Origin: a virus
DNA: 35,509 nt
Strand: one strand, 5' to 3'
IMG/VR virus record: IMGVR_UViG_3300014050_000074
Location: 1-35,509 of that record
Numbering within the stretch: the first letter of the stretch is position 1; each line of letters opens with the position of its first letter. The notes under the pieces were generated by a model. It made no database searches. It was not told the origin of the DNA and saw only the letters and a program-made list of their open reading frames with translations. The translations under genes and the position numbers were made by a program. This document shows, piece after piece, positions 4,026 through 29,350 of this stretch.

Positions 4026-4850
4026 TCAGGTTTTCGGCACGAGTACATACGGCCGACCATTAATAACAAGTGTGCCGTTGATCTGCAAACCGGCATCTTT
4101 AGTAATGGGGTAAGGTTTCGTACGTTTGCCGTAAAGTTTTATGATTTCCGCAATGTCGCCCTCTTGCGGCTTTGTAACGTTCGGGTCGTAATACGGCGCC
4201 ATGAGGTTGCCGGCGTTTAAGTGCGGCAAGCCCAGCGCATGACCCAGTTCATGGCAGATGACAGCGACGGCCATATTGAATGACCAGTCTTCCGCCTCGT
4301 CGAACATCTGATCGAGCTGGACGTTCTCCGCAACGCCACACGGCAGTTCGCTCCACGCCAACGTGCCGCCTTTGTTATCTAAACCGTTCTTCTTGCCGAC
4401 GCCGGAGCGGGCGTAAATGTTCGCCTTCTTGTGCGTGTCCACGCGGACCGGGTCAACCATGCAGACCTCGGCCCACTGCGAGAACGCAATGTCGTACGCC
4501 TCGGCGACTTGAGCGTTTGTCAGCCCCGGCAGATGGATCTCGTGGTAATACGAGATGTTCGGCATCGGCCACTTGCAGGGATCGCCACCGGGGGCTGTGA
4601 TGTTGAAATCAGGCAGCCCGCAGCGGTGACGATTGATGCGATGCGCGGTCTTCGGGCCGACTGTGCCGGTGGGATTCAGGCCGTTGAATTCTTGGAACGT
4701 CCGAATCGCCTTTTGCAGCTCTGCCCCTTTGATCTTTTTGACCTGAGCCAGCGTTTTGTCGCCGAAGTACCCCAACGAGTGGAGCCGTCGGAGAATTTCA
4801 CTGATGGGCAGAACATGAGCATCGCTGTGTATTGTTGGCTTCCGTGCCAT
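4026..4850 (-). CDS. Matrixin-type zinc metalloprotease with peptidoglycan-binding-like prodomain
   Basis: The domain order copies matrix metalloproteinases. Residues 17-75 match the PG_binding_1 fold (LHSLGYFGD, LQKAIRTFQEFNGLNPTGTVGPKT). Next comes RCGLPD (76-81), equivalent to the PRCGxPD cysteine switch that keeps the zymogen inactive. The catalytic domain has the zinc motif HELGHALGLPH (200-210) and a Met-turn at NLMAPYYDP (Met217). TLAWSELPCG near 163-172 corresponds to the substrate-edge region. The site AAGGA precedes the start. No signal peptide is visible. A role in degrading host or virion proteins after Cys-switch activation is inferred from the family. Confidence 0.85.
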   Translation of the reverse strand: MARKPTIHSDAHVLPISEILRRLHSLGYFGDKTLAQVKKIKGAELQKAIRTFQEFNGLNPTGTVGPKTAHRINRHRCGLPDFNITAPGGDPCKWPMPNISYYHEIHLPGLTNAQVAEAYDIAFSQWAEVCMVDPVRVDTHKKANIYARSGVGKKNGLDNKGGTLAWSELPCGVAENVQLDQMFDEAEDWSFNMAVAVICHELGHALGLPHLNAGNLMAPYYDPNVTKPQEGDIAEIIKLYGKRTKPYPITKDAGLQINGTLVINGRPYVLVPKT

Positions 4851-6760: not shown

Positions 6761-7027
6761 TCAGCGCCCAAAAGACAGCATGAACTTGATAAATACCACC
6801 AGCCACGCCAACAGGCCGCTGATAGCGAAAAAAACGATGACCGCGCTCAGACTGACCACGCGCCCGAGCTTCTGAATGGGGATGTCGCGCAGCAGTTTCC
6901 ACGCCTTGAGGTAATCAACCGCGCCGGGTTGCTTCGGCGGTGTGGGTTCCGGGGTCGGCGCCGGGGTGTCGGGCTTCTTTTTCCGTCCCAGCAGTTCGTT
7001 GAGCTTATCAAGCAGCGGTGTCGCCAT
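6761..7027 (-). CDS. Small C-tail membrane protein with Pro-rich linker
   Basis: The ATG at 7027 has GGGGGAAG upstream and lies inside the last 20 nt of the preceding gene; the longer open frame to 7093 lacks a site. It encodes 88 residues: a short charged helix ending in RKKK, a Pro/Thr linker (TPAPTPEPTPP), an amphipathic region, then one strong transmembrane helix (about 60-84, LSAVIVFFAISGLLAWLVVFIKFML). This is a tail-anchored topology. The function is not recognised. Confidence 0.55.
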   Translation of the reverse strand: MATPLLDKLNELLGRKKKPDTPAPTPEPTPPKQPGAVDYLKAWKLLRDIPIQKLGRVVSLSAVIVFFAISGLLAWLVVFIKFMLSFGR

Positions 7028-8447
7028 GTGGCTTCCCCCAGTTCTTAATCGTGTCAAAGACGTCGTTGCCGTACAGCTGCGTCGCCTTGTCAAACGTGTT
7101 CATCTGCGGCAGCGTTCCAGTCGCAGCGGCTTGCGCCATCTCGTAGCGGTAACGCGGATCGAGCATCGAACGGTACTGATGGGCCTTCATGCGCGACGCC
7201 AGAATGAAATCGCCGCGCTGTTTGGCCTTCATCAAGTGATCGACGACGTTTTCGTACACCGGTTTGCCGTGATCAAACACAAACGGCGTGCGGAAGTTCA
7301 ACAAGTTGCCAAACTGCTGCGCATACACGCTGTTGGTGGCCGCTTTGACGTGCGAACCGACAACTCCGGCTGGCGCATGAAACCGAAACTTCGTCGGCGT
7401 GTGCGTAATGCCCTTGTACTTCGGCTTTGGGTCGTCCACGTGCCAGTCCTGCGGCGCTTGCGCGATTAATCGCCGCAGGATCTCGTGCTTGCGGTCGTAA
7501 TCGCGGCGATCCGAGTGCGTTTTGGCCGCCCGGAGTTCGTCGAGGATGCGCGGACGGGCTGGTGTGTCGTCCTGCTCCGCGCCTTTCTCTATTTCTTTGA
7601 CTTTTTCGTAGTACTGCGGATCTTCGGACAGGTGATCTTTGGCAATTTCTTTGGCAATTTGATCATTTCTTGTGTGTTCGTGCTCATGTTTAGCTCCTTC
7701 GGCTAAGGCAGGCGCAGAAAAATCCCGATCGGGTAAATTATCGGCTTCACCGCCCGGTAACAGGTCTTTTTTTACCGAGCGGGAAAGATCGTTGGCCGCT
7801 TTTAGTTCTCCCCTACTGATGGGGTTACTAAACCTATGCTCTTCGTCACTTTCGGCAGGGGTTTCGTAACCCTTGGCCTTGCCGTTGTCGAGGAGAATGC
7901 CCTTGCGGCGCACGGCAACAGTGATGTGAAACGGGTGATCGCCGTTAGGCAGAGCCGACAGGCCGTAGCTCTTGCGCAAAGTCGCCAGAGTGGGCGCAGA
8001 CACCTGAATCGCCCAGACTTTGCTGATGTGGCCGCCGCCGTCAGGTGTAATTTCTTTCAGGCCGCTCAGCGTATAGCCAAACATGTGGCCGCGCTCGTTG
8101 ATTTTGTCCGCGCCGACTTGGTTCACCTCGTCGGCGGTCATCACCGAAATGTGCGCGTTTAAGAGTTCCTGCTTGTCGCCGAGATTCCACACGCCGGCGG
8201 TGGGCAGTTCCGCGCCCGGTTCCGTCATGGCGTCGAACACGCCGCGGATAAGGGCGTTCGGTACAGATAACAAAAGCCAGCCGGACTTGGCGAGATAGAG
8301 ACGGCCAGCCAGCGGGTAACTCATGGCGGCTTGTTTTCCGCCCACACGCTGTAACCAGCCAAACGCATTGCCGGCCGCATATGCCGGATGCTTGCGCAGG
8401 TACTCAGGCTGCCACGCCAGCGGATCTAACGCAGATAAGCTATCCAT
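7008..8447 (-). CDS. 2H phosphoesterase-like domain protein (479 aa)
   Basis: The N-terminal third carries two His-x-Ser/Thr motifs in the spacing and strand context of the 2H phosphoesterase superfamily: AHISVM (His99) and FHITVAV (His174), with the RKSYGLS segment between. 2H enzymes act on cyclic phosphates and 2'-5' linkages of RNA or nucleotides. Residues about 200-340 are acidic and helical (AKHEHEHTRND; EKVKEIEKGAEQDD), and the C-terminal 130 residues are of unknown fold. GAAGG precedes the start. The long extra region and the surrounding structural-type genes could mean it is carried in the virion. The catalytic call rests on the two motifs only. Confidence 0.55.
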   Translation of the reverse strand: MDSLSALDPLAWQPEYLRKHPAYAAGNAFGWLQRVGGKQAAMSYPLAGRLYLAKSGWLLLSVPNALIRGVFDAMTEPGAELPTAGVWNLGDKQELLNAHISVMTADEVNQVGADKINERGHMFGYTLSGLKEITPDGGGHISKVWAIQVSAPTLATLRKSYGLSALPNGDHPFHITVAVRRKGILLDNGKAKGYETPAESDEEHRFSNPISRGELKAANDLSRSVKKDLLPGGEADNLPDRDFSAPALAEGAKHEHEHTRNDQIAKEIAKDHLSEDPQYYEKVKEIEKGAEQDDTPARPRILDELRAAKTHSDRRDYDRKHEILRRLIAQAPQDWHVDDPKPKYKGITHTPTKFRFHAPAGVVGSHVKAATNSVYAQQFGNLLNFRTPFVFDHGKPVYENVVDHLMKAKQRGDFILASRMKAHQYRSMLDPRYRYEMAQAAATGTLPQMNTFDKATQLYGNDVFDTIKNWGKPHGDTAA

Positions 8448-8461
8448 AGCGCGCCTTCAAA

Positions 8462-8533
8462 CTGCCTGAGTAGGACTCGAACCTACAACCCCAGCATTAA
8501 CAGTGCCGTGCACTACCATTGTGCTATCAGGCA
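8462..8533 (-). tRNA. tRNA-Asn (anticodon GTT)
   Basis: A complete cloverleaf can be drawn on the minus strand. The acceptor stem is TGCCTGA/TCAGGCA (8527-8533 with 8463-8469). The D arm is GCACAATGGTAGTGC, the anticodon stem CGGCA/TGCTG with loop CTGTTAA (anticodon GTT), a 5-nt variable loop follows, and the T arm is GTAGG-TTCGAGT-CCTAC. The discriminator is G and no CCA is encoded. Asn(GTT) is the only tRNA I see here. It sits between the 2H-like gene and the holin-like gene, a typical phage location for supplementing host codons. Confidence 0.93.
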
Positions 8534-8538
8534 ATCAT

Positions 8539-8688
8539 TCACGGGGTTGCACTTACCGTTGGCGCAATCGTACTCCCAACTGCGTGATGTGCTACCGCCG
8601 CATAAGCCGACACCAGCAGCATAAGGCAGAAGAACGCTGAAGCACCCCACGCGGCCACGCTCAATTGTTTACGAATGGTCATGGTCAT
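8539..8688 (-). CDS. Small single-span membrane protein (49 aa)
   Basis: The ATG at 8688 has AGGAG 10 nt upstream and overlaps the end of the upstream holin-like gene. The product is MTMTIRKQ followed by a hydrophobic stretch (about 12-30, AWGASAFFCLMLLVSAYAAVA) and a short polar tail. A tiny membrane peptide directly after a three-span holin-like gene could be a holin antagonist or spanin fragment, but there is no diagnostic motif. The start is uncertain; an ATG three codons upstream has poor spacing. Confidence 0.5.
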   Translation of the reverse strand: MTMTIRKQLSVAAWGASAFFCLMLLVSAYAAVAHHAVGSTIAPTVSATP

Positions 8689-9052
8689 GTTTTGCATGCT
8701 CCTCGGAATCGATGTGGCGATTGATCTCATCCCGGTCTCGTTCGTGGTGGATGATGACTTTGATCCCCGCGCCCGATAACAGCGAAATCACTAAATCTGT
8801 CAACGTCGAACCGCCCATGCCCGCCAGCACGCAAATGCCGATCAGGCCGTAGACGTTTTCCGCTTTTCGGTAGTTTTGATACCAAATCAGCGCAATGGCG
8901 AGGCCGAGAAACCCGGCGTTCAGCATGGCGCTGATCACCGCTAGTTTAGAGAGTTTCTTGGCAAACCGCAAAAGCGTTGCCAGCCCAGCAAAAGCAGCTG
9001 CGCCAAATGCGCTAAAAAGCACCGACAACGAATGTAATGTTTCGTCGTCCAT
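8669..9052 (-). CDS. Three-span holin-like membrane protein with His-rich tail
   Basis: From the ATG at 9052 the protein has 127 residues with three predicted transmembrane helices (about 5-25, 38-57 and 66-92; the last two are MLNAGFLGLAIALIWY and GLIGICVLAGMGGSTLTDLVISLL) and a charged C-terminus ending HAKHDHDHS. Length and topology fit class I/III holins such as LydA-like proteins, which form membrane lesions at lysis. The ribosome site is weak. It follows the structured RNA at 9088-9311 directly, so that RNA may influence its expression. Holin is a reasoned guess. Confidence 0.5.
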   Translation of the reverse strand: MDDETLHSLSVLFSAFGAAAFAGLATLLRFAKKLSKLAVISAMLNAGFLGLAIALIWYQNYRKAENVYGLIGICVLAGMGGSTLTDLVISLLSGAGIKVIIHHERDRDEINRHIDSEEHAKHDHDHS

Positions 9053-9087: not shown

Positions 9088-9311
9088 TTGTGTCAAAAGC
9101 CCCTGCGATCCCCTGTCCGCAGGTCCTATCCCGACCGAAGTCGCGATTCCGCAGCAACTTTCAAGGATATAATTTATCCCGTGTGGCATTTGCTGCTCCT
9201 CCGCCCGTGAGCCCGACAAAATCTGACCACGGAACCGTGTAACCCTCGCAGCATCCCTGCTTTGAAAGTCACTCCTAACCAGCCGGCCACCACGACTAAC
9301 TTTTGACACAA
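9088..9311 (-). ncRNA. Candidate structured RNA closed by a perfect 12-bp helix
   Basis: On the minus strand, TTGTGTCAAAAG at 9300-9311 pairs perfectly with 9088-9099. Inside are fully nested helices: an 8-bp helix 9262-9269/9157-9164 enclosing hairpins 9248-9260 (GCAG/CTGC), 9228-9239 (CACGG/CCGTG) and 9165-9180 (GGATA/TATCC). Outside that helix are hairpins 9132-9143 (CGAC-TTCG-GTCG, a stable UUCG tetraloop) and 9102-9123 (6 bp, CCTGCG/CGCAGG). Seven helices with no conflict in 224 nt argue for a real multibranched RNA rather than a coding gene. No known RNA family is recognised. It lies between a GDPD-like gene and the holin-like gene. Confidence 0.6.
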
Positions 9312-9325
9312 CCCCATTTTACAAC

Positions 9326-9357: not shown

Positions 9358-9395
9358 AGATTTGGGTCGGCGCTAAATTGTCAAAGAGCGATGGA

Positions 9396-9939: not shown

Positions 9940-10971
9940 TCAGAGAATCTTCGCGGCGATTAAGCAACCGCGAGCGACGGCGTGCAGCGGATCCTTGGCG
10001 TGGCGCACTTCTTTCACCGGCAGCGGAAAACCGTTCTCGGCCAGCTTCTTCGTGAACATTTCCACGAAGCCCTTGGCCCGCGTTGTCCCGCCGGCTACAG
10101 ATATCAAAATCGGCTCTTTGAATTTCGGCAGCGCTTTGTGATCCAGCAGCGCGGCGGCCAGCTGCTTCGTCGTGTAGTCGATCAGGCGCTCGTAATACAC
10201 GCTCACGGCGGCCAGAATCGTATTCTCGTTCTGCTCGCCAATGACAAACGTGCCGTGTTCTTTTTCAGCCTGCACAACAGAGTCGGGCTCGTTCGTGGCC
10301 ACGGCTGTCATGCGGTCGATCCAGTCGCCTGACTTCGTGGTCGAGAACAGCACGGTCGGCTCGCCATTGAGCATCACGCACACGTTCACCATACCGGCGC
10401 CCCACGACAGGCCGATGCCGGTGTAGTCGTCGTGTTCTAACTCCGAGTAACACAGCGCCTCGGCCTCGTTAATAGCTCGCGCCGCATAACCCTGCTCCGC
10501 CAGCACGGTGCGCACCACGTCTTCGTGATACGCCACGTCGAAATCATCGTCCTCTTGGTCGACGGGCTGCGCCGGGACACAGAAGATCAGCTTTTCGTTG
10601 GGGGTGCTGGCGGTGCCCACGACTTCCTTGAGAATAAACGCCAGTACGCGCTTGGCCTCTTTTTCCTTGGGGCTGACCACGCCGCGGTACATGGGACGCT
10701 TGGCCGAGTCGTTGCGCTCGACGGCTTTCTCAATGGCGTCTTGGCCGAGAATAATGAAGCTCCCGTCGGCGTCCTTCACGAACACCTTTCCCTGCAGGCC
10801 CTTCTCGATCATCTTCGTGGCCACGGGCGTCGTCGGCTTGATGATGTAGAACGCGTCCCGGAAATCCTTGTATTGGACGTTGCCGACCACGTGCGGATCC
10901 GTGGTGGAGTTGGCGGCTGCATCTTGCGCCAGCACAATAAACGATGTCCCGACGTCTAAACCCTTTGCCAT
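9940..10971 (-). CDS. Actin-like ATPase (ParM/MreB-type filament protein)
   Basis: The 343-residue protein carries the actin-fold signatures in order: phosphate-1 loop GLDVGTSFIV (4-13), the connect-like NEAEALCYSEL (168-178), phosphate-2 GIGLSWGAGMVNVCV (185-199) and the adenosine motif ISVAGGTTRAKGF (near 294-306). Length is normal for bacterial and phage actins. These polymerise with ATP to segregate plasmids or position phage DNA in the cell. GAAAGG precedes the start. It lies 2 nt after the small membrane protein at 10974-11315, which may be its anchor or adaptor. No parR-like DNA-binding gene or iteron centromere is evident next to it. Confidence 0.85.
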   Translation of the reverse strand: MAKGLDVGTSFIVLAQDAAANSTTDPHVVGNVQYKDFRDAFYIIKPTTPVATKMIEKGLQGKVFVKDADGSFIILGQDAIEKAVERNDSAKRPMYRGVVSPKEKEAKRVLAFILKEVVGTASTPNEKLIFCVPAQPVDQEDDDFDVAYHEDVVRTVLAEQGYAARAINEAEALCYSELEHDDYTGIGLSWGAGMVNVCVMLNGEPTVLFSTTKSGDWIDRMTAVATNEPDSVVQAEKEHGTFVIGEQNENTILAAVSVYYERLIDYTTKQLAAALLDHKALPKFKEPILISVAGGTTRAKGFVEMFTKKLAENGFPLPVKEVRHAKDPLHAVARGCLIAAKIL

Positions 10972-28192: not shown

Positions 28193-28230
28193 ATTAGATA
28201 TACCCGGCTTTTGGCTTTTATTTAGATATC
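28189..28230 (-). promoter_or_regulatory. Phage-type promoter, copy 1
   Basis: This is one of four gapless 42-nt elements. An upstream box TATCTAAAT (positions 3-11) is followed 19 nt later by a -10-like TATCTA (31-36) and TGACG (38-42). It drives the gene at 27491-28111. The first bases overlap the TGA stop of the amidase gene (28229-28231). Spacing to the gene start is about 80 nt. Confidence 0.7.
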
Positions 28231-29350
28231 AGCCAAGAGACCGGGTTTTCAGGACCAGCTTTTCCTGCGCGGGCCATAACAGCATTTGCTGCATGGTATC
28301 CACGCTGGTGACATCCTTGAGCAGCGCGAGGGCTGCCTGCGGATTCGCCTGTACTAACTCGGGTGCTGGCATCGCTTCCTTGCGAGCCCGCGTGAGATCG
28401 TCATAGCGGCTGTACGTATCCCACATCCAATCTTTGCCGTTCTTGGGGTTGTGCTTTTTCAGCTCGCCCTGAACGTAATGATTGGTTTGCACAAGGCCGT
28501 GTTTCCTTGTGCGGATGTAGGTATGTTCGCCGGTATGACTGACGACCGCGTGGTCTTTACTTTGCGTACCAACGACATGGGCAAAGAACGGCACCATGGT
28601 TTGTTGGGTTCGCAAGTGAAAGACCAGCTTCTCGTAGCTTGGCATCTTGTCGCAGACTGCTCGCACCCGCTGTAACGCAGGCCACGCATACAGAAACTGC
28701 GGAACCGATGCCACGGTTTTAACAACCGAAGTTAACATGCCCCACCAGCTCTCATCGCTTTCGTCCTCGTCAACGCAGGACTTCACGATGGGAGCTTGAT
28801 TCACGACCAGCGCCCACTTGTCACACATGGCTGATACCACGCCCACCATGCCCGCAACGCCCACAGATGTGTAGCTTTTGCGGCCGCGATGGAAGCGAAT
28901 CAGCTTCGTGTGTTTCCCGGTGGAGGGCGGCGTGACCCAGTCCATGTTACGCACGATCACAGGACTGGAATTCACATCGAAGCTGGCGGAACTGCACCCA
29001 CAACCGTACATCTCCGAGAGAGACGTAAAGTCGTAAATTAAGTTCCCCAGCAGGAGTTTGCCGACAGGAATTTCCGCATGCCGGGCAATGCAGCGGAGTT
29101 CCTGCGGGTATTCGAGGCCGGTCTGTTCCAAGAGCCAGCGCCCGATATACCCACTGCCGCTTGCCAAAGACTTGATGACGCTGCGCACAGTGTCAGACAA
29201 GTGTGGCAAGACTTCCTCGTCGATATGGGTTTCCACATCGCCAAGGATTGACTGGATTGCGTCGCCATTTTGAATAGCAAACTCAGTCCAGCGCTCATCG
29301 GCAGGCTCGTCCAGATCGATGTCGTGGACTTTGCCAGTGAAGAGCTTCAT
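28229..29350 (-). CDS. Acid ceramidase/NAAA-like Ntn hydrolase
   Basis: The 373-residue protein follows the cholylglycine-hydrolase/acid-ceramidase pattern: an N-terminal helical part with CIARHAEIPVGKLLLGNLIYDF (87-108), then YGCGCSS (115-121) where Cys117 or Cys119 would be the autocatalytic nucleophile, RNMDW (134-138), TSVGVAGMVGVVSAM (161-175), WALVVNQAP (179-187) and a later QTNHY. In this family an N-terminal peptide is cut off to expose Cys, and amide bonds of N-acyl lipids are hydrolysed. A site GAAAGGGAG precedes the start. Attack on N-acylated lipids or signals of the host is inferred. Confidence 0.72.
   Translation of the reverse strand: MKLFTGKVHDIDLDEPADERWTEFAIQNGDAIQSILGDVETHIDEEVLPHLSDTVRSVIKSLASGSGYIGRWLLEQTGLEYPQELRCIARHAEIPVGKLLLGNLIYDFTSLSEMYGCGCSSASFDVNSSPVIVRNMDWVTPPSTGKHTKLIRFHRGRKSYTSVGVAGMVGVVSAMCDKWALVVNQAPIVKSCVDEDESDESWWGMLTSVVKTVASVPQFLYAWPALQRVRAVCDKMPSYEKLVFHLRTQQTMVPFFAHVVGTQSKDHAVVSHTGEHTYIRTRKHGLVQTNHYVQGELKKHNPKNGKDWMWDTYSRYDDLTRARKEAMPAPELVQANPQAALALLKDVTSVDTMQQMLLWPAQEKLVLKTRSLG

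Follow-up and report, generated by a model that had tools for sequence, protein, structure and literature searches.

A conserved structured RNA ahead of a small membrane protein gene in large freshwater phages, possibly a cis-acting 5' leader

The DNA analyzed here (the window) is a virus record of 35.5 kb from IMG/VR (IMGVR_UViG_3300014050_000074, positions 1 to 35,509). On its minus strand a structured RNA domain of approximately 224 nucleotides, consisting of seven helices (P1 to P7) and a pseudoknot, occupies positions 9088–9311. Downstream of it lies the gene for a small membrane protein of 127 amino acids (8669–9052, minus strand). The label "holin-like" for this protein was inferred from its small size and several hydrophobic stretches. 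Searches against holin families gave no PHROG match, and the LydA-type Pfam family PF16083 matched in one member with a non-significant E value of 0.28. A tRNA-Asn at 8462–8533 was the sole Rfam match in the window at the gathering score, and ARAGORN gave it too. The minus strand also encodes a 479-amino-acid protein with a 2H phosphoesterase domain and DUF5661 (7008–8447), which lies downstream of the RNA in most homologs, and a matrixin-type metalloprotease with a peptidoglycan-binding domain and weak matches to endolysin families (4026–4850). At 9940–10971 (minus strand) an actin-family protein is encoded which matched Pfam Volactin with an E value of 1e-62. This family has been described in haloarchaea, and relatives are encoded in no fewer than 241 matching stretches of IMG/VR contigs.

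A compact seven-helix domain had been proposed for positions 9088–9311 by a sequence-only reading of the window, and these coordinates proved to be accurate. The minus strand of the segment folded with a minimum free energy of −89.6 kcal/mol compared to −69.05 ± 3.99 kcal/mol for 200 dinucleotide shuffles (z = −5.15), and none of the 200 shuffles folded as well. The plus strand folded less well (−62.7, z = −4.20). The perfect 12-bp closing helix P1, with all other stems nested inside it, was borne out by complementarity and by the minimum free energy fold: on the minus strand UUGUGUCAAAAG (9311–9300) pairs exactly with CUUUUGACACAA (9099–9088). P1 encloses the hairpin P2 (AGUCG-UGGUGGC-CGGCU, 9281–9297), P3 with a nearly invariant apical hairpin on a fast-evolving stem (9239–9272), the hairpin P4 (CCGUGGUCAG...CACGG, 9205–9232), P5 with an outer and an inner helix (9151–9196), the hairpin P6 (9129–9146) and the hairpin P7 (9102–9123) with its invariant loop AGGGGAUC at 9114–9107. 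The C(UUCG)G tetraloop claimed earlier is present in P6 at about 9146–9129. Across the family the order from 5' to 3' is P1 (12–17 bp), P2, a GGUUAG linker, P3, P4, a GGNGG linker, P5, P6 and P7.

Relatives, on contigs reaching 211 kb, were found by searching IMG/VR with the neighbouring proteins. Wherever a relative of the 127-amino-acid gene occurred, the segment preceding it was recognisable. Twenty distinct members were aligned with MAFFT independently of any covariance model. RNAalifold returned the same helix set P1 to P7 from this alignment, with 68 pairs, 47 of them compensatory, and a consensus energy of −91.8, to which covariation contributed −13.8. A covariance model detected 71 copies in 89 loci and further full-length and partial members among loci obtained with a second DNA pattern. 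In an alignment of 52 distinct homologs, which leans towards the structure because, in contrast to the 20-member alignment, it was fitted to the covariance model, 96.9% of the pair cells were standard pairs compared to 81.2% in column shuffles. When the partners were slid by 1–3 columns as a control, 36–43% were paired. Changes on both sides were observed for 53 of 71 pairs in the 52 homologs, the number of double-change cells was 704 (212 in shuffles), and the covariation score was 0.548 (0.247 in shuffles).

All seven helices were kept in the 52 homologs. Both-side changes occurred in 14 of the 16 pairs of P1, whose 5' strand (9300–9311) and 3' strand (9088–9099) covary in this set. The cells of P2 were paired to 100% and four of its five pairs covary; all five modelled basal pairs of P3 covary. 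P4 cells were paired to 97.4%, the outer and inner helices of P5 to 100% and 95% with 11 of 13 pairs covarying, and P7 to 99.1%. In P6 all seven pairs covary; the stem sequence is free and many members carry the UUCG loop. The structure is kept by compensatory change in the relatives, and the segment is a conserved structured RNA.

Three features go beyond the earlier description: a pseudoknot between P2 and P5, the nearly invariant P3 loop and the invariant P7 loop. Mutual information calculated without a structure prior recovered the helices and singled out the column pair 30–141, which belongs to the pseudoknot. In this 5-bp interaction GUGGC in the P2 loop (9290–9286) pairs with GCCAC in the internal loop of P5 (9187–9183). 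It was paired in every sequence, and three of the five pairs showed changes on both sides (C-G/U-A/U-G, U-A/C-G/U-G and G-C/A-U/G-U). Conservation reached 95% or more in 81 columns, of which 38 are unpaired. This exceeds the needs of folding and therefore points to a binding partner or a complex tertiary core.

The window itself has a 43-codon open frame, and a conserved 43-residue peptide in place of the stems had been named as the observation that would speak against an RNA. This peptide is excluded, since the frame is broken and the stems are kept. In about half of the homologs the frame has 5–25 codons (full range 5 to 86), and its AUG is replaced by AUA in several members. Extension of the holin-like frame upstream through the RNA was rejected likewise, as it is closed in 45 of 47 homologs and open in the remaining 2. 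Considering all frames on both strands, no frame was stop-free in more than 5 of 49 homologs, and lengths vary without regard to multiples of three. A small peptide gene or mere base composition as the origin of the stems can practically be dismissed in view of the broken frame in most homologs and hundreds of compensatory cells.

No Rfam 15 family matched at gathering or relaxed thresholds when three diverse members (the window and two distant homologs) were used for the search which the sequence-only reading had named as a check. A Flavo-1 fragment from these scans was spurious (E value 2.7, outside the RNA). In the literature outside subscription journals no description of this RNA was found. 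Almost certainly it represents a new structured-RNA family.

The RNA was located directly upstream of the 127-amino-acid gene in all 80 loci detected by a profile search for that gene, which agrees with the position claimed for it. Its upstream neighbour varies (volactin, a 151-amino-acid gene and others). The linkage of 80 out of 80 is weaker than it appears because the clade is syntenic in general; the RNA polymerase gene, too, is always found 11–13 kb downstream. The proximity of the tRNA, to which meaning had been attached, is incidental: many members have no tRNA-Asn or have it at a distance of kilobases. Thus, from the earlier suggestion of a regulatory or free-standing RNA the real, conserved, structured minus-strand RNA remains, and the tRNA link has to be dropped.

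The carriers of the RNA are large freshwater phages, and the RNA is kept in dozens of relatives as a single copy per genome. As far as searched, it was found only in a clade of phages of approximately 200 kb which possess their own multisubunit RNA polymerase. In all 11 searched RNA-bearing contigs above 100 kb this polymerase (Rpb1/Rpb2 domains) is encoded 11–13 kb downstream of the RNA. Neither the RNA nor the holin-like gene was matched in five contigs (68–211 kb) of related volactin phages, and four RNA-less relatives gave no match to the RNA polymerase. The closest cultured polymerases, from Salmonella phage Arash and Vibrio phages D69, D148 and D181, are approximately 32% identical; in Arash the polymerase gene lies near the portal and capsid genes. 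The covariance model gave no match in the cultured phages Arash and D69, and in annotated phages a DNA search revealed no copy of the RNA and no match to the holin-like protein was obtained. Five exact pattern matches in bacterial genomes, considered as host or prophage copies, were attributed to chance, as none gave a covariance-model score.

Directly upstream of P1 a −10-like element, TAAAAT, was detected at 9316–9321 (minus strand). The nearest hexamer of the TANAAT type is located 13–16 nt before the conserved P1/P2 anchor, a distance window of 4 nt, in 42 of 49 homologs and 34–35 nt before it in five, in which an extra hairpin precedes P1. Such a hexamer occurred in the broader range of 10–22 nt in 6.5% of shuffles. 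In the promoter alignment TG at −15/−14 and TT at −36/−35 stand out. The conservation of the −10 box in this alignment is inflated because the box was chosen by score, to which TG contributed weakly and TT not at all. The sequence CTTTGACAATTT was rejected as the −35 element of a normal promoter: it has no −10 element at 16–18 nt, and the conserved −10 element is mostly about 33–60 nt away. We infer with good support that transcription is driven by a sigma70-type promoter of the RNA's own and that the RNA lies at the 5' end of the product. The predicted transcript start is near 9311, about where P1 or, in members that have it, the extra hairpin begins. This hairpin (for example UUUGCGCG-UGAAAA-CGUGCAAA) is found in a divergent clade (L139, L161, L164, L192, L173 and L062), where it sits between the −10 box and P1, about 25–40 nt before P1. 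After P1 no intrinsic terminator was found; the next ten bases are merely AU-rich with no conserved U run. P1 and the start codon are separated by about 0–50 nt of unconserved sequence.

Just after the 151-amino-acid gene lies the sequence GCTCTTTGACAATTT (9375–9389, minus strand), which is identical to the E. coli rrnB boxA at 14 of 15 positions. By sequence it is a candidate antitermination site containing the boxA core; a working site would be bound by NusB-S10. Upstream of the RNA, sites with at least 11 of 15 identities were found in 34 of 48 homologs (~70%) compared to 1.9% of shuffles, mostly at a spacing of 40–60 nt. In the 204-kb relative G012 the site is unique in the genome. It is absent in the part of the family in which volactin directly adjoins the RNA. 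The boxA of rRNA operons is both required and sufficient for the recruitment of antitermination factors, and it precedes structured RNAs which are closed by leader-trailer helices (PMC10250234). BoxA has also been reported to shield a long noncoding leader from Rho (PMC4807359). The site in the phages is located upstream of the RNA's own promoter and could therefore act only on read-through transcripts from the volactin side. The arrangement resembles an rrn leader in that a boxA-like site precedes a structured untranslated RNA closed by a long helix, but here boxA precedes a second promoter, is missing in part of the family, and the RNA has no similarity to rRNA.

The loop of P3 contains CAGGGAUG (9252–9259, minus strand), a motif of the CsrA/RsmA type (CANGGANG). 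The cap reads CA(G/U)GGAUG in 51 of 52 homologs, while the stem beneath changes freely. In 50 of these homologs it occupies the same column, and in L066 it is shifted by an insertion in the stem. Several members read UACAGGGAUGUA at this position, and L197 has no GGA in the cap. A GNRA tetraloop was rejected as the conserved feature of P3, as several members have UGGA in place of GGGA. The first loop base alternates between G and U and the GGA core is kept, which would break a GNRA loop but suits the CsrA consensus. This consensus has been given as (A/U)CANGGANG(U/A), and as RUACARGGAUGU for E. coli (PMC4353343, PMC6692469). Besides P3, the only further conserved GGA in a hairpin loop is that of P7, present in all full-length homologs.

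Consequently, the P3 hairpin (CANGGAUG), perhaps together with the P7 loop, may bind CsrA/RsmA of the host and thereby control the operon or titrate CsrA. We consider this rather doubtful; the cap is a lead, not proof, with eight bases, one clear site and a position far from the start codon. In its favour, the motif is placed in a hairpin loop, as in RNAs bound by CsrA/RsmA, in 51 of the 52 homologs and on a fast-evolving stem, and its GGA core fits the published consensus (PMC4353343, PMC6692469). However, so short a motif could be a loop making a tertiary contact, it is missing from L197, and it lies ~200 nt from the start codon and not over a ribosome site. Like CsrB/RsmZ-type RNAs and CsrA-regulated leaders, the new RNA displays the nearly invariant hairpin; unlike them, it combines a single perfect site with a fold that is highly structured and strongly conserved, and it shows neither clustered sites nor one over the start region. 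The many sites and looser fold of known CsrA sponges also count against CsrA binding. A CsrA site would be compatible with a leader as well as with a free RNA.

Taken together, we propose a new structured RNA family that forms a 5' leader transcribed from its own promoter and acts in cis, and we assign this joint claim a probability of roughly 0.52. As a mechanism, the cis-acting leader is the most likely one (about 50%). Transcription would start at the RNA's own sigma70-type promoter and, with no intrinsic terminator, proceed through the holin-like gene to the genes that follow it. Upon transcription the RNA would fold into a compact domain, whose conserved loops might recruit a partner. Candidates are RNA polymerase or Nus factors, or host CsrA at the GGA hairpin of P3. 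This partner would then set the level of transcription or translation of the downstream block, which includes the membrane protein, structural genes and the phage RNA polymerase. The upstream boxA may protect read-through transcription of the long untranslated stretch from Rho. The near-fixed distance of the −10 element from P1 and the constancy of the downstream gene (80 of 80 loci), while the upstream neighbour varies, argue for a leader. Against it count the lack of a visible expression platform or a masked ribosome site and the variable, unconserved linker between P1 and the start codon. The special case of an antiterminator similar to the put RNA of phage HK022, in which the nascent RNA would bind host or phage RNA polymerase and confer resistance to termination across the late genes, appears unlikely. 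Here, too, the RNA sits at the predicted start of a transcript, as putL of HK022 is found just downstream of PL, but put RNA is only ~70 nt long with two stem-loops (PMC9378689) and dissimilar to the seven-helix fold of 225 nt. Put RNA is defined by binding RNA polymerase and suppressing termination; the new RNA is known here from its sequence. The RNA was found only in phages with their own RNA polymerase and was absent from the volactin relatives in which no polymerase was found, a correlation confounded by phylogeny; moreover, Arash and D69, the phages with the nearest cultured polymerases, do not carry it. A classical riboswitch controlling the downstream gene is very improbable. Conserved unpaired junctions do lie beside a membrane-protein gene, but the aptamer would have to be joined to an expression platform, and neither an alternative terminator/anti-terminator nor a sequestered ribosome site was seen, the linker after P1 is variable, and no Rfam riboswitch matched.

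The cis-acting leader explains the data only slightly better than a free RNA excised at P1, and the two readings are close. In the latter, which we regard as a credible alternative with somewhat less than even odds, a trans-acting RNA would arise both from its own promoter and from upstream transcription that reads through under boxA protection. P1 would serve as a helix of the leader-trailer type, and cleavage in or beside P1, of the RNase III type or another, would set the RNA free to act alone or as a ribonucleoprotein on a host or phage target. The compact domain closed by P1, with its 38 unpaired, at least 95% conserved columns, goes beyond the need of a simple leader, the AU-rich flank after P1 is variable and unconserved, and there is one copy per genome. 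The order of boxA, leader and long closing helix resembles pre-rRNA (PMC10250234). On the other hand, neither a terminator nor a processing signal was found, and the RNA was never seen away from the holin-like gene. A helix of 12–17 bp is also short for a substrate of RNase III. So stable a P1 suits a leader and a free-standing domain alike. A more far-reaching version seems improbable to us: a new class of RNA which the phage makes in the manner of rRNA, with a promoter of its own, boxA upstream and a long helix closing it, and which serves as an RNA or RNP machine for infection. Such a machine might, for example, capture host CsrA, or engage the phage multisubunit RNA polymerase and so switch on the late and lysis block.

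Only a small number of strongly conserved structured RNAs are known from phages, most of them of obscure function. Like GOLLD and ROOL, the new RNA is phage-borne, has an elaborate structure with a pseudoknot supported by covariation, and is of obscure function. GOLLD expression rises during lysis (PMC12286853). In contrast to GOLLD and ROOL, with about 650–800 nt or more, it measures ~225 nt and is fixed ahead of a membrane-protein gene instead of being tied to tRNA islands. The GOLLD and ROOL covariance models gave no match in the whole-Rfam scans of the three members. These RNAs are further characterized by a homo-oligomeric RNA cage; membership of the new RNA is judged here from sequence alone. 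That it times lysis, as had been suggested, would be a guess. Should the RNA turn out to be the leader of the late block in these polymerase-encoding phages, it would reveal how they time their lysis and virion genes; if free-standing, it would constitute a new class of phage RNA. The mechanism is directly testable, since the RNA is present once per genome beside a constant neighbour and has a predicted start, a hairpin that is a candidate for protein binding and a candidate antitermination site.

Two minor observations concern other genes. In the relative G012 the RNA polymerase consists of a beta subunit fused to the front of beta' (1472 amino acids, L247:10501–14919) and a separate back part of beta' (626 amino acids, L247:7638–9518, minus strand). 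In the window, positions 28229–29350 (minus strand) encode a protein matching AAT acyl-transferase and an NAAA-beta amidase domain, which is unusual in a phage.
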